In this document: positions 34,003 through 37,991 of the stretch, piece by piece | Numbering within the stretch: the first letter of the stretch is position 1 | How the letters are laid out: the number at the start of each line of letters is the position of its first letter | From: Deltaproteobacteria bacterium | GTDB lineage: Bacteria > Desulfobacterota > Binatia > UBA9968 | NCBI GenBank assembly: GCA_009692615.1 | Contig: SHYW01000012.1 | Location: 1-62,997 of the forward strand | Direction: 5' to 3' | Length of the DNA: 62,997 nt | Notes under the pieces: model-generated | The model's database searches: none | The model's input: the letters and a program-made list of their open reading frames with translations, nothing else | Told to the model about the DNA's origin: nothing | Program-made: the position numbers and the translations under genes

Positions 34003-34461
34003 ATGCAGTTGTTGTGTGCAATATTTCTAATCTTGAATTTTTTCGTCGGCGGCTCGGTATTCGGCCAAGGGCCGAGCAAGGCCGCGGCAAAGTCGATCAC
34101 GGTCTACCAAGACCCCGGCTGAGGCTGCTGCTCGGGGTGGGTCGGGCACCTGCAAGCGAATGGTTTCAAAATCGAGAAGAAAAATGTCATGAGCAGCAAG
34201 CTCGTCGATGTGAAGATCAAGCACAAGGTTCCTGAGAAATTGCGCTCCTGTCATACCGCGGTGATCGATGGTTATGTGATCGAAGGTCACGTGCCGGCGG
34301 ATGTGATCGATAAACTACTCAAAGAAAAGCCGGCCGTTCTTGGTCTCGCCGTCCCTGGCATGCCGATCGGTTCGCCGGGCATGGAAGGCGGCAAGCCGGA
34401 GCCCTACACGGTTTATACTTTCGACAAAGACGGTAAGACCGCGGTGTACGCGAAACGGTGA
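34003..34461 (+). CDS. DUF411/CopG-like thioredoxin-fold protein, predicted selenoprotein (Sec40)
   Basis: 152 residues if UGA at 34120-34122 (codon 40) is read as selenocysteine. Signal peptide MQLLCAIFLILNFFVGGSVF, then SITVYQDPG-Sec-GCCSGWVGHLQANGF, where the DUF411 family has PxCGCC. The rest, LRSCHTAVIDGYVIEGHVPA and LGLAVPGMPIGSPGM, is intact DUF411. The frame is open on both sides of the UGA to the stop at 34461. P. aeruginosa CopG, of this family, is a periplasmic copper-binding thioredoxin-fold protein with a CxCC site. GGGAG precedes the ATG at 34003. The alternative is a nonsense mutation, but the UGA falls exactly on an active-site Cys and a SECIS-like hairpin follows. Confidence 0.85.
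34126..34157 (+). promoter_or_regulatory. Predicted bacterial SECIS element
   Basis: Upper stem GGTG (34136-34139)/CACC (34147-34150) closes a 7-base apical loop GGTCGGG; a lower stem pairs GCTGC (34127-34131) with GCAAGC (34152-34157) around one bulge. The UGA-to-loop distance is 17 bases and the loop starts with GG, within the published bacterial SECIS rules (16-37 bases; a G in the first two loop positions). The loop plus 3-prime stem resembles the E. coli fdhF element, GGUCUG-CACC type. Confidence 0.65.
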
Positions 34462-34499
34462 AGACGCGTGGGGAGATGGAGTATTGGAGTGATGGAGTA

Positions 34500-35501
34500 A
34501 TGGTTATTCGGACATTGTCACAGGTCGCGGTGTGCTTTCTCGTCGTGATTCTCAGCGCTGGACTGTCGTTGGCGCAGGAAAAGAAGAATATCCGCATGGT
34601 CTTCGTCAGCTTGGCGTGGAACAGCGAGATTCCTTTCCGCGCGGCGTTGGCGCGCGGCTTCTTCAAGCAGCAAGGGTTGCAGATCGAGCCGATCTTGATT
34701 CGCGGCGGGCCGGCGGCGATTTCGGCTCTGGTTTCGGGCGAGGTCGATTTCGCCAGCATCGGCGGCGCCCAGGCGGTTTTTCGTAGCCGATCGCGGGGCT
34801 TGGATCTGGCCATCGTCGGCTGCACTTCGAGTACGACTAACTATATCTTGCTCGGCAACAAACAGACCCGCACGGTGGAGGATCTTCGGGGCAAAATGAT
34901 CGGCGTCACCGGCGCCGGCACCTACTCGGAATTCGCCATGAAAGCGTTCCTCAAGAAGCACAACATCAATCCGGACAAGGACGTTACGCTCAGGGCCATC
35001 GGCGGCACCGTGCTGCGCGCGGCGGCCATCGAGAAAGGGATTATCGCCGCGGCGCCGTTCTCACCGGAGGATGGCGTTCGGCTGATCAAAGCCGGCTATT
35101 CGGTGATCAGCAACTTGAGCGAATCGCTGGGCATTCCGCAGAATATTATCGTCACGCGCAATGAAGTTTTGGAAAAATATCCCGACATGAGCAGACGGGT
35201 GCTCAAGGGCTACATCCAAGGGATGCAGCTGGCCAAGTTCAACAAAAAAGAGGCGATCAAGGCGGGATACGATGCCGGATTGCAAGGTGATGCGGAAATC
35301 GTCAGCGCCGCGTGGGATCTTTACTCGCCCGGTTTGACGGCTGATCTTTCGATCGTCACCGCGGGACTCCAGCAGATGCTTGACGAAGATATTCGCGCCG
35401 GCTTGGTCGACAAAAACTTTACCTTGGACCGAGTGATCAACGACCGCATTTTAAAAATCGCCCAGCAGGAACTTCGCGCCGAGGGCAAGCTGAGACAGTA
35501 A
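34500..35501 (+). CDS. ABC-type substrate-binding protein, NMT1/SsuA-like (tandem copy 1)
   Basis: 333 residues from the ATG at 34500; a GTG at 34458 that overlaps the selenoprotein stop (GTGA) would add 14 residues encoded by TGGAGT-type repeats. Signal peptide VIRTLSQVAVCFLVVILSAG ending at SLAQEKKN. Motifs: LAWNSEIPFRAALARGFFKQ, RGGPAAISALVSGEVDFASI and TVEDLRGKMIGVTGAGTYSE. The end KIAQQELRAEGKLRQ is shared with the next gene. The pair is a recent tandem duplication. Its place between two predicted selenoproteins is the only clue to its role. Confidence 0.87.
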   Translation: MVIRTLSQVAVCFLVVILSAGLSLAQEKKNIRMVFVSLAWNSEIPFRAALARGFFKQQGLQIEPILIRGGPAAISALVSGEVDFASIGGAQAVFRSRSRGLDLAIVGCTSSTTNYILLGNKQTRTVEDLRGKMIGVTGAGTYSEFAMKAFLKKHNINPDKDVTLRAIGGTVLRAAAIEKGIIAAAPFSPEDGVRLIKAGYSVISNLSESLGIPQNIIVTRNEVLEKYPDMSRRVLKGYIQGMQLAKFNKKEAIKAGYDAGLQGDAEIVSAAWDLYSPGLTADLSIVTAGLQQMLDEDIRAGLVDKNFTLDRVINDRILKIAQQELRAEGKLRQ

Positions 35502-36512
35502 GTGGCGGTCATCATGCGCAGAACTTTGGCGATTCGAATCTTGACATCGGTCCTGATGGCCCTATCGGTCGCATCGCTGGTCTCCGCCCAGGAAAAGAAA
35601 AATCTCCCGGTCGTTTTCACCGGCTTGGCTTGGAACAGCGAGCTGCCGTTTCGCGTGGCGTTGGCGCGCGGCTTTTTCAAAGCGCAAGGTCTCGAAATCC
35701 AGCCGAACTTCGTGCGCGGCGGGCCGATGGCATTGGCGGCGTTGTCGTCGGGCGACGTGAACTTCGCCGAGATCGGCGGTGCGCAGGCCGTGATGCGCAG
35801 CCGAGCGCGTGGTCTAGAGGTGTCGATCATCGCTTCCATCGCCAACGCGACGACGTTTCAGTTGATTGGCGGCCGAGCCGCGCGCAGCCTCGAAGACTTG
35901 AAAGGGAAGATTATCGGCATCACCGGCGCGGGGGCGTTTTCCGACTTTGCCATGAGAACGTTTCTGCGCGTCAAGGGCATCGATCCGGACAAGGATGTGA
36001 CGCTGCGCGCCGTCGGCGGCGGCAGTGGGCGCATTAGCGCTTTGGAAAAGGGTATCATTGCCGCGGCGCCGTTTTCGCCGGAAGACACCGTAAGACTGCT
36101 GCGTCTCGGCTATCCAATGATCGCCAACATGGGCGACAGTTTGAACATTCCACAAAGTATCGTCGTCACGCGCAATGATGTGCTGGTGAAAACGCCGGAT
36201 ACCGCCAAGCGATTTCTAAAAGCATTGCTGCTTGGCATGCAGCACGCCAAATCCAACAAAGCCGACGCGATCAAAGCCGGATACGAGGGCGGACTTCAAG
36301 GCGAGCCGGATATCGTCAACCAGGCTTACGACCTTTTTGTGCCGGCCTTTTCCGCAGATCTTTCGTTTAACCTTGCTGGTTTTCAGTTCATGCTCGATGA
36401 AGACAAGCGCGCCGGTCTGGTCGATGCCAAGTTTACCCTCGAGCGCGTGCTTAACGACCGTGTTTTAAAAACCGCTCAGCAAGAACTGCGCGCCGAGGGG
36501 CGGCTCAAGTAG
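35502..36512 (+). CDS. ABC-type substrate-binding protein, NMT1/SsuA-like (tandem copy 2)
   Basis: 336 residues from a GTG that abuts the previous stop; ATG at 35514 is the alternative start. Signal peptide about 1-27 ending at LVSAQEKKN. LAWNSELPFRVALARGFFKA and RGGPMALAALSSGDVNFAEI match copy 1 nearly word for word, while the central lobe (ATTFQLIGGRAARSLEDLKG) has diverged, so ligand preference may differ. C-terminus KTAQQELRAEGRLK. The next gene starts 4 bases downstream, so the five genes 34003-37165 form one tight transcription unit. Confidence 0.87.
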   Translation: MAVIMRRTLAIRILTSVLMALSVASLVSAQEKKNLPVVFTGLAWNSELPFRVALARGFFKAQGLEIQPNFVRGGPMALAALSSGDVNFAEIGGAQAVMRSRARGLEVSIIASIANATTFQLIGGRAARSLEDLKGKIIGITGAGAFSDFAMRTFLRVKGIDPDKDVTLRAVGGGSGRISALEKGIIAAAPFSPEDTVRLLRLGYPMIANMGDSLNIPQSIVVTRNDVLVKTPDTAKRFLKALLLGMQHAKSNKADAIKAGYEGGLQGEPDIVNQAYDLFVPAFSADLSFNLAGFQFMLDEDKRAGLVDAKFTLERVLNDRVLKTAQQELRAEGRLK

Positions 36513-36515
36513 GCC

Positions 36516-36932
36516 GTGGCGGAATCGATAGTAGAGCCGAAGCTGACCTTGCGGCAAGTAGCGTGCGAGCGCGCCGCGCCGGCAAAGTTGTGGCGCATCG
36601 TCTGGAGTGTGAGCAATCTGGCGGCGGATGCTTTAACAATCATCTCGGTGCGCTTGCCCCACGGGAAGTTCAAAGCGGCTGAGCGGTCTTTCGCTCCGGC
36701 GTTTGAATTGGCAGCGGGCGCAACCAAGGAGTTCATAAGTCACGTGGATTGCGACGAACCGGCGGGACTGGTGACGGAAAACGCCTTCGTTATTATTCAT
36801 TGCCAGTGGCGCGGTGCGGCATGGCGGATTTTTGTGCGCATCCGCGTAAAAGTCAATGCCGCCGGCGCGCCGGCAGCGGCGACCGAGCTGATCACGACAC
36901 AGAGAATTGGATTTTCCGGAATCCCGAATTGA
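36516..36932 (+). CDS. Hypothetical protein in selenoprotein cluster
   Basis: 138 residues from a GTG 4 bases after the binding-protein stop. I do not recognise a family. No signal peptide. Composition is a soluble beta-rich domain: LWRIVWSVSNLAADALTIIS, then VRLPHGKFKAAERSFAP and AFVIIHCQWRGAAWRIFVRI, which resembles an immunoglobulin-like or C2-like strand pattern. Two cysteines (ERAAP-preceding C17 and HVDCDE) and one in IIHCQW. Its stop is 11 bases before the dual-UGA gene, so its synthesis is presumably coupled with it. Confidence 0.65.
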   Translation: MAESIVEPKLTLRQVACERAAPAKLWRIVWSVSNLAADALTIISVRLPHGKFKAAERSFAPAFELAAGATKEFISHVDCDEPAGLVTENAFVIIHCQWRGAAWRIFVRIRVKVNAAGAPAAATELITTQRIGFSGIPN

Positions 36933-36943
36933 GGTCAACCGAC

Positions 36944-37165
36944 ATGGCGAGCAAGGAAGACGATCTTTACATTCTCAAACGGATGCGTGGCTGACATAGC
37001 AATTGAGGCGTCGGCTTCGAAGAGACCACGGGTATGGTCTCAAACGCGGTTAAAATGGCGCAGCATGATGTCCTCGCGGCGCTCGAACGTTTGCGCACCG
37101 AGCACGGTGACGATGCCGAATATAAAAAGCTTCGGAAAGAGCTGCCGAAGGAGTGGCCGATCTGA
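36944..37165 (+). CDS. Predicted dual-selenocysteine UxxxU small protein
   Basis: 73 residues if two in-frame UGA codons, at 36992-36994 (codon 17) and 37004-37006 (codon 21), are read as Sec: MASKEDDLYILKRMRG-Sec-HSN-Sec-GVGFEETTGM, then VSNAVKMAQHDVLAALERLR and a Lys/Glu-rich helix ending EWPI. GAGG lies 9 bases before the ATG and the gene follows its neighbour by 11 bases. Without recoding neither half would be a plausible gene; together they read as one charged, mostly helical protein with a redox-type motif that Cys homologues should show as CxxxC. No family recognised. A single hairpin at 37022-37041 serves both codons by distance. Not in any annotation class I know. Confidence 0.7.
37022..37041 (+). 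promoter_or_regulatory. Predicted bacterial SECIS element shared by two UGA codons
   Basis: Perfect 7-bp stem GAGACCA (37022-37028)/TGGTCTC (37035-37041) with the 6-base loop CGGGTA. The loop starts 22 bases after the second UGA and 34 after the first, both inside the 16-37 window for bacterial SECIS elements, and the second loop base is G as required. The stem is coding sequence (ETTGMVS), so its perfection is unlikely to come from protein constraint. Confidence 0.65.
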
Positions 37166-37235: not shown

Positions 37236-37991
37236 CTACTTGGTGAAAATTACTTTTAGCTGACGTAAGTTCAAATCCGCCACGCCGCTCCAGAATTCTC
37301 TCTTTCCCGTCATCGCTTGAACATGGCCGTCCCATTCCAAAGTGAAAGCCGTCAGTCCAAGCTTTACCGCGGCGCGGATTTTATATTGCGTCGCTTCGTC
37401 GGAGGCGAGTTGGCGGATGGCGTCGATCTGCCGGCTGCCGTGGCCTTCGTCTTGGGCGGCGTGGAGTTGATAGGTGGCCGCGGCGCGCGGTGAGAAGCCA
37501 TAGTGGCCGGTCAGTTCGCGATAAACCTTCTCGGAGATTTTTCCCGCGCCGCCGAGCTGGCTCTCGACGAAGGCGAGCATGGCGACGCCTTCGAGCGCCG
37601 AGCGGCGTTGGCAACAGCCGACGATCATTTCGATGGCCGCCAGAGTTCCCGGCGCTGGTTCGGCGTTGTCCGCTTGTTCGCGCGAGATGCCGCCTTCTTC
37701 GAGAAACTGCAACATGATGTCGACGTGGGTAAGCTTGCCACCCAACTCCTCCATGAAGTTTTCCAGCACGGTGGCCATCACTTCATATTCTTTCGCCGAC
37801 ACGGCGTTGATCGCCATGTGGCCGAAGAAGATCGGATTGGTGCGCACGCGCAGATAGTGCTGCACTTCGCCGAGAATAATTTGCTCCTTGGTCCAGCGAT
37901 GCTTGATGATGCCGTCGAACCAAGGATGCTGCTCCATCGGCACCTCGGCGGCGTAGCTCCACAGTTCGTCGATAAATGCGTCGGGCTTCAT
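37236..37991 (-). CDS. Heme-oxygenase-fold (PqqC/TenA/CADD-like) iron-dependent redox protein
   Basis: 251 residues, all-helical PqqC/TenA-like fold. Candidate metal or active-site residues are Glu42/His45 (LGEVQHYLRV), Glu/His in FMEELGGKLTHVDIM, and a late cluster AAQDEGHGSRQIDAI. This pattern matches the heme-oxygenase-like diiron oxidases (CADD/UndA/PqqC neighbours). No signal peptide, so cytoplasmic. It ends 70 bases past the dual-UGA gene on the opposite strand, convergently, with a CT-rich hairpin (37186-37215) between them. Substrate unknown. Confidence 0.75.
   Translation of the reverse strand: MKPDAFIDELWSYAAEVPMEQHPWFDGIIKHRWTKEQIILGEVQHYLRVRTNPIFFGHMAINAVSAKEYEVMATVLENFMEELGGKLTHVDIMLQFLEEGGISREQADNAEPAPGTLAAIEMIVGCCQRRSALEGVAMLAFVESQLGGAGKISEKVYRELTGHYGFSPRAAATYQLHAAQDEGHGSRQIDAIRQLASDEATQYKIRAAVKLGLTAFTLEWDGHVQAMTGKREFWSGVADLNLRQLKVIFTK

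Follow-up and report, generated by a model that had tools for sequence, protein, structure and literature searches.

A small protein with two in-frame UGA codons, encoded beside a heme-oxygenase-like oxidase, appears to found an undescribed selenium protein family

Introduction

Can two UGA codons that lie four codons apart in one short reading frame both be read as selenocysteine (Sec), and if so, by which signal and to what end? The question is raised by a 73-residue frame at 36944-37165 (+ strand) of contig SHYW01000012.1 (GenBank assembly GCA_009692615.1, Deltaproteobacteria bacterium, Binatia, UBA9968), whose 62,997 nucleotides (nt) are called "the window" below. An original prediction, made from the letters of the window and a list of its open reading frames, had proposed a dual-Sec redox protein served by a single hairpin that resembles a bacterial selenocysteine insertion sequence (SECIS). 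The combined reading at which we arrived is that of a two-Sec protein encoded in the middle of a three-gene module, between an upstream gene (UP) and the gene for a dimetal oxidase of the heme-oxygenase-like type (HDO), decoded with the help of one hairpin and acting as a diselenol partner of the HDO. As a whole we consider this reading fairly probable; its parts are graded separately below.

Results

A reading frame with two internal UGA codons

The frame extends from the ATG at 36944 to the terminator TGA at 37163-37165, and internal TGA codons are confined to codon 17 (36992-36994) and codon 21 (37004-37006), yielding the motif UxxxU. By direct reading, a GAGG (36931-36934, + strand), the likely ribosome-binding site, is found 9 bases 5′ of the ATG, and the stop of the gene upstream is at 36932, leaving a gap of 11 bases. 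The frame, the GAGG and the gap had all been described in the original prediction, and re-reading reproduced each of them exactly.

To gauge chance, the window was compared with 60 shuffles of its dinucleotide blocks. Two double-UGA frames (TGA-x3-TGA) were observed, compared with a mean of 2.4 per shuffled window, so that such a frame is not unusual by itself. For double-UGA frames with a 7-bp hairpin 3′ of the UGAs, the values were 1 observed and a mean of 0.03 in the shuffles. Beyond this chance test, the reality of the frame is settled by the conservation of frame and spacing in a family of homologues.

A family with selenocysteine at both positions

A search with one genome per species retrieved 55 loci with the small protein, of which 53 have the motif and both codons and one is truncated. 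A spurious 22-residue entry without the motif (L056) was removed from all counts, and L010, at a contig end, from the codon counts. Together with the window, the 53 loci form 54 rows that align gap-free around the Sec codons, with frame and spacing kept. When 400 genomes of another carrier phylum, that of locus L016 (titled Chloroflexi), were searched with a profile, the gene was detected in 18, four of them new, which raised the alignment to 58 rows; a weak match in genome G742 (22.9 bits, one internal TAG) was excluded from the 18. Among 395 genomes of the window's own phylum, the sole clear match was the window's genome. Part of the work used subsets, comprising 43 of the 54 family rows (A1), 45 of 51 UP sequences (A2), 46 of 53 HDO sequences (A3) and 24 of the 58 rows (A5). 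The window row in A1 has a 74th residue, an artefact of its terminator TGA being read as U.

The family motif is MRGUxxNUxxxFEETTGMVSN. The record titles of the carriers name Deltaproteobacteria, Binatia, one Syntrophobacter, one Proteobacteria and many Chloroflexi, and the titles of the metagenome-assembled genomes point to soil, groundwater, lake and open ocean as habitats. A scan of viral_contigs with A1 for viral relatives gave seven pattern matches, none of which was confirmed.

Of the 58 aligned genes, 56 are of the Sec/Sec type, one is Cys/Sec (L107, TGC/TGA) and one Cys/Cys (L012, TGT/TGT). Codon 17 is therefore TGA in 56 rows, TGT in one and TGC in one, and codon 21 is TGA in 57 and TGT in one; neither TAA nor TAG occurs at either codon in the 58 rows. 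The terminators of 57 rows are TAG in 29, TGA in 18 and TAA in 10 cases. The mixed gene L107 (genome G801) has retained the Sec that is nearer to the hairpin, and its residue 29 is Met instead of Thr. Both TGAs are present in 55 other contigs, which excludes an assembly error in the window. The 52 codons 3′ of the UGAs, which had been noted as open, are conserved as protein, and no frameshift is found in the 58 genes; between the window and its closest relative, L002, nonsynonymous divergence (dN) in this region is 0.21 and synonymous divergence (dS) 1.14.

With Sec or Cys at both positions in every aligned row, the proposed dual-Sec protein is well supported, and judged from the sequences through which the family is known here, it is almost certainly a real two-Sec selenoprotein. 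The assumption that Sec-x3-Sec stands in place of a CxxxC needs to be turned round: the exchange with Cys does occur, but as far as seen Sec/Sec is the rule and Cys is found in just 2 of the 58 genes.

The selenocysteine machinery of carrier genomes

The source genome (98.7% complete) contains everything that had been suggested as a check, i.e. a tRNA-Sec (74.9 bits, anticodon TCA), selA (616.7 bits), selB (410.3 bits) and selD (372 bits). The genes selD, selB and selA are adjacent, and the tRNA-Sec is on a different contig. The selD gene (L077, 1609-2535, − strand of contig C70) is itself a selenoprotein gene with one in-frame TGA.

The selA search covered 50 of the 54 carrier genomes and gave a match in 47 of the 50, above the cut-off in 46. 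In G002 and G032 selA was not detected, but the tRNA-Sec is clear (74.2 and 70.7 bits, respectively), and because of this these two assemblies are probably incomplete. The genome of the Cys/Cys form, G011, yielded no selA, and its best tRNA-Sec score was 42.5 bits, compared with a cut-off of 47 bits. The presence of selA alone is not associated with the family in Chloroflexota, as 323 of the 400 sampled genomes carry it.

Two conserved RNA helices

Hairpin B (37022-37041, + strand) has a perfect 7-bp stem (37022-37028 and 37035-37041) and the 6-base loop CGGGTA (37029-37034), exactly as the original prediction had placed it. The loop is 22 nt from UGA21 and 34 nt from UGA17. Six of the seven pairs can form in all 58 rows and the outermost one in 57. 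The 20-mer folds with −9.2 kcal/mol; the 70 nt from UGA17 onwards have a z value of −2.8, and 2 of 200 shuffles fold as well. In the published bacterial SECIS model, a stem of 4-16 bp carries a loop of 3-9 nt with a G in the first two positions, at 16-37 nt from the UGA and with a minimum free energy of −7.5 kcal/mol or lower (PMC13188914). Hairpin B agrees with every point given there, for both UGAs, as had been claimed.

The claim of one shared hairpin has held in that hairpin B is conserved, but it is not the sole conserved RNA structure. RNAalifold, applied to 24 rows, predicted a helix A (37004-37019, + strand), in which UGA21 and the following two bases (37004-37008) pair with 37015-37019, a stretch from the last base of codon 24 through codon 25 to the first base of codon 26. 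All five pairs are present in 57 of the 57 genes with UGA21, and the Cys/Cys gene, in which selection for decoding is gone, has lost three of the five. Helix A begins 9 nt after UGA17 and is separated from hairpin B by 2 nt; the distance from UGA21 to the start of hairpin B is 15 nt.

Codon-level constraint acts on both helices. The lowest synonymous variation of all scored codons is found at codons 24, 25, 27, 28 and 29 (0.00) and 32 (0.03), compared with a mean of 0.45 outside codons 27-33, whereas codons 26, 30 and 33, the third bases of which are unpaired, vary (0.51, 0.52 and 0.64). In neighbouring genes of these loci, the codons that are fixed here have a background use of 0.41 to 0.80. 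With synonymous codons drawn at their background frequencies, 37% of the rows would form the pairs of helix A and 13% those of helix B. The chance of obtaining the pairs by synonymous choice was estimated at about 10^-16 for helix A (36 rows) and about 10^-31 for helix B (35 rows), with representatives less than 75% identical that were treated as independent although they are not fully so. Support for helix A also comes from the codon choice at positions 22 and 24. Arg22 is encoded by AGR in 9 of 9 cases (background 0.08) and Ser22 by AGY in 31 of 31 (background 0.37), and the third base of codon 24 is C in 58 of 58 genes, across Gly, Asp, Thr, Ser and Asn.

In hairpin B of L109, Glu27 is replaced by Ser and Ser33 by Ala, which turns an A-U pair of the stem into C-G, and in L107, with Met at position 29, the loop reads TGGGCA.

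Several observations weigh against the picture drawn so far. Covariation is thin: each helix has a single change that affects both sides of a pair, in L109 in either case, and the covariation score of B was reached by 19 of 500 shuffles (24 of the 58 rows aligned). In L109 the outermost pair of B is gone, and folding of this sequence alone gives neither A nor B whole; L107 on its own also folds differently, and neither single fold contains the two helices together. The pooled all-pairs ratio of nonsynonymous to synonymous differences (pN/pS) is 0.62 for the part 3′ of the UGAs and 0.63 for the part 5′ of them, i.e. it is not low, and saturation of synonymous sites is probably behind this value. 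The peptide patterns of the locus search included FEETTGMV, and thus the amino-acid conservation there is partly due to ascertainment. By its description this pattern search favoured no particular synonymous codons, and the 400-genome profile search yielded two rows that depart from the pattern. Lastly, genome G049, carrier of the Sec/Sec gene L054, has no tRNA-Sec over the cut-off, and its selA is in two pieces.

Decoding of the two UGA codons

We infer that one hairpin is used for both UGAs. SelB bound to hairpin B (37022-37041) would bring Sec-tRNA to both codons. With UGA17 in the A site, helix A could still be folded and would shorten the path to hairpin B; with UGA21 in the A site, helix A would necessarily be open, this codon being part of it, and hairpin B would start 15 nt downstream. 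Helix A might thus serve as a collapsible spacer, a role that we propose tentatively.

Two other explanations of the codons and helices have to be weighed. Each UGA could have a SECIS of its own, helix A serving UGA17 and hairpin B serving UGA21 as independent, overlapping signals; the position of helix A directly downstream of UGA17 and its retention in all genes that have kept UGA21 would fit such an arrangement. On its own, however, helix A would make a poor SECIS: the loop begins 14 nt after UGA17, and in at least 31 of the 58 genes it starts with CC, whereas the published model requires a G (PMC13188914). Moreover, L107 retains the helix A pairs in spite of its Cys17, and hairpin B alone lies within the published limits for both UGAs, which makes separate signals rather unlikely. 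The more radical explanation is that the UGAs are true stops, which would leave a pseudogene, or a leader peptide of 16 residues followed by an attenuator-like hairpin. The frame by itself is indeed no rarer than in shuffled sequence, and a hairpin after a short frame could be regulatory. Yet the UGA positions are identical, none of the 58 genes has a frameshift or a TAA or TAG at codon 17 or 21, just two have Cys instead of Sec, and the protein is conserved for 52 codons further; we regard true stops as already refuted.

The selenoprotein and its fold

For the selenoprotein, AlphaFold2 (43 rows, Sec entered as Cys) predicted four helices, with a mean predicted local distance difference test score (pLDDT) of 85.0 and a predicted template modelling score (pTM) of 0.67. 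Sec17 and Sec21 are at the end of predicted helix 1 and form an i/i+4 pair. Towards the C-terminus, R64, P68, W71 and P72 are conserved.

Sequence searches of Pfam, NCBIfam and PDB with the selenoprotein gave matches at background level only. In NCBIfam (June 2026) no family was found at E ≤ 1 for the window protein and none at E ≤ 0.001 among 43 members; the original prediction had not recognised the family, and it likewise has no Pfam or NCBIfam model. The best NCBIfam entry, the radical-SAM family TIGR03960 (E 0.0024, 6 members), was rejected: a Cys-x3-Cys appearance is shared, but the motif's third Cys is missing. Fold comparisons were uninformative, both with Foldseek (best E 1.1) and with VIA-align.

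A MetV-like protein (L091, 1096-1761, − strand) with a methylenetetrahydrofolate-reductase C-terminal domain matched the family over 68 columns at 25% identity (E 1.6e-5; hhalign probability 87) and resembles the Sec region by CxxxC-SAGGEKEVGILSSAL. We do not claim kinship, because the matched part is outside its Pfam domain and because it is the only other match in the 395 genomes.

A three-gene module with an HDO

The selenoprotein gene is the middle one of a conserved trio, with UP upstream and an HDO gene downstream, the latter usually convergent. The HDO of the window (37236-37991, − strand, 251 residues; Pfam Haem_oxygenas_2, E 6e-17) has counterparts within 1.1 kb downstream of the selenoprotein in 53 of the 55 loci; 51 of these are encoded on the opposite strand and 2 on the strand of the selenoprotein gene, and in 50 of the 53 the distance is 600 nt or less. 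The exceptions are L054, where the contig ends at the gene, and L012, whose HDO lies at a distance of 5.7 kb on that contig and is still convergent. In the sample of 400 genomes, an HDO profile (E ≤ 1e-30) and the small protein were found in the same 18 genomes, and neither alone in any (Fisher p ~1e-31, genome kinship not corrected). The mean column identity is highest for the HDO (76%), compared with 62% and 46% for the other two members of the trio. Apart from a few exceptions, the HDO tree reproduces the broad groups (for Chloroflexota 2 changes, compared with 10.7 in shuffles), indicating that the module is old and has not spread recently.

The HDO is homologous over about 200 residues to CADD, a 4-aminobenzoate synthase (PDB 1rcw, 8va9, 9pj4; E 2.5e-12 with 1rcw). 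All six aligned metal ligands are kept: E82, H89 and E143 in 46 of 46 rows, H177 and D181 in 45 with one gap, and H184 in 45 with one X. The ligand set of the superfamily is 3-His/3-carboxylate, and Tyr27 and Lys152 are named as the sacrificial residues of CADD, both according to a review (PMC13108848). At these positions the HDO has an invariant Phe25 and, at position 156, V in 38, A in 6 and M in 2 of the 46 rows; with both residues absent, the HDO does not appear as a self-sacrificing 4-aminobenzoate synthase of the CADD type. E42, H45 and H223 of the HDO (37236-37991) are also invariant and Cys127 is present in 44 of 46 rows; these four are possible contacts to the substrate or the partner.

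UP (36516-36932, + strand, 138 residues) was assigned by locus linkage and an AlphaFold2 model. In 51 of the 55 loci a 131-residue UP domain is encoded upstream, in the orientation of the selenoprotein gene. Three of the four loci without it have 3, 101 and 405 nt of contig upstream, respectively, and the fourth, L055, has 898 nt without a match. The model (pLDDT 94.3) is an all-beta sandwich of 8 strands with an ApaG-like arrangement. Among the ApaG structures 1xvs and 2f1e, the best structural match is 1xvs (Z 9.9, root mean square deviation 3.1 over 108 residues), but the identity is 11%, no Pfam family was found for UP, and none was convincing among 45 members.

Other neighbours are found at part of the loci only, i.e. 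SsuA/NMT1-like binding proteins at 10 and F420-dependent LLM oxidoreductases, in soil Chloroflexi, at 9. In the window, two SsuA/NMT1-like binding-protein genes (34458-36512, + strand) lead directly into UP, with spacings of 3-4 bases. In five loci (L019, L026, L031, L034 and L054), UP and the selenoprotein gene are separated by an inserted gene of some 695-700 residues; that of L026 is GH65-like, below the curated cut-off. The SsuA/NMT1-like, LLM and GH65-like (5 loci) neighbours were left out of the functional inference.

Possible functions

The exact co-occurrence and linkage described above make it highly probable that the selenoprotein works together with the HDO. HDOs require electrons or a special substrate for O2 turnover. 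A dedicated two-selenol protein that is inherited with the HDO, and never without it in this sample, is best read as its redox partner. Sec17 and Sec21, four residues apart at the end of a helix, would form a diselenol/diselenide pair that might exchange electrons with the HDO, its substrate or its product. The redox protein of the original prediction has thereby gained a named candidate partner, the adjoining HDO, but the role is drawn from gene linkage and chemistry, and we put it forward as possible rather than probable. Still more tentative is the full combination, in which a switchable spacer and a single SECIS would allow the insertion of two Sec four residues apart and the diselenide product would serve a dedicated oxygen-activating dimetal oxidase.

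The same linkage could reflect other roles. Sec17 and Sec21 could bind a metal ion, and the protein could load or protect the dimetal site of the HDO as a metallochaperone or metal-site protein. An i, i+4 Sec pair on one predicted helix, encoded next to a dimetal enzyme, is compatible with this, and many HDO clusters are labile according to the review (PMC13108848). Selenolates, in contrast, are unexpected ligands for the transfer of iron or manganese, and the pair is not accompanied by a further conserved metal ligand (His or a third Cys), so that we consider a metal role unlikely. Alternatively, the selenoprotein could be the substrate of the HDO, its Sec residues being oxidised or cut out. 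The exact co-occurrence would agree with this proposal, as would the absence of the aligned Tyr27 and Lys152 from the HDO; CADD, the nearest HDO that has been characterised, uses protein side chains (PMC13108848), and its side-chain sacrifice and peptide-derived natural products are the parallels that can be named. It is nevertheless distinctly improbable, since the whole chain is conserved to the C-terminus (R64, P68, W71, P72), the model is a compact four-helix protein unlike a leader and core peptide, and Sec can be replaced by Cys. Finally, a redox-sensing regulator has been considered, i.e. a protein resembling helix-turn-helix (HTH) regulators whose diselenide would switch the binding of DNA or of a partner. 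The structural likeness to the HTH regulators MntR, CbnR and HinK is weak (Z 5 to 6), and such values are common background for helical models; designed proteins occupied the top rows, and with a best Foldseek E of 1.1 a regulator is very improbable. Cooperation with the HDO as a redox partner remains our preferred reading.

Discussion

The results suggest a selenoprotein family of wide environmental reach that annotation pipelines would cut at residue 16. One published predictor may miss selenoproteins without Cys homologues, according to its own description (PMC12013277); the family of the window is nearly devoid of Cys homologues and is thus of the kind that this predictor may miss. If the proposed decoding is true, the gene offers a compact natural system for studying how one bacterial SECIS serves two UGAs. 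If the proposed partnership is true, a specific partner has been named for the HDO superfamily, in which functions have been validated for only about a dozen members (PMC13108848).

The family appears to be undescribed. Literature searches retrieved no report of a UxxxU selenoprotein, of a SAR202 selenoprotein or of a bacterial SECIS serving two UGA codons, and the HDO literature retrieved mentions no link of an HDO to a selenoprotein. A 2026 review lists 119 prokaryotic selenoprotein families, and its table has UxxU and UxxxxU motifs; in the portion available, neither a UxxxU motif nor a matching entry is present (PMC13188914).

The comparison with other two-Sec families was based on the Table 1 descriptions of that review (PMC13188914). 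The UxxU metal-binding family NF041115, the UxxU proteins of the FmdB family and the UxxxxU protein TsoB (a rhodanese/DsbD fusion) likewise have two close in-frame UGAs and a redox-like or metal-like motif. The family of the window differs from all three in its UxxxU spacing and in being a helical protein of 73 residues rather than a thioredoxin, rhodanese or zinc ribbon, and its Cys forms are rare. Hairpin B resembles the published bacterial SECIS, but the gene differs from the model in having one hairpin in range of two UGAs and a second conserved helix that includes UGA21. Selenoproteins as such are a known kind; what is new here is that two Sec are inserted where UGA21 itself forms part of a conserved helix, and that the gene is linked to an HDO.
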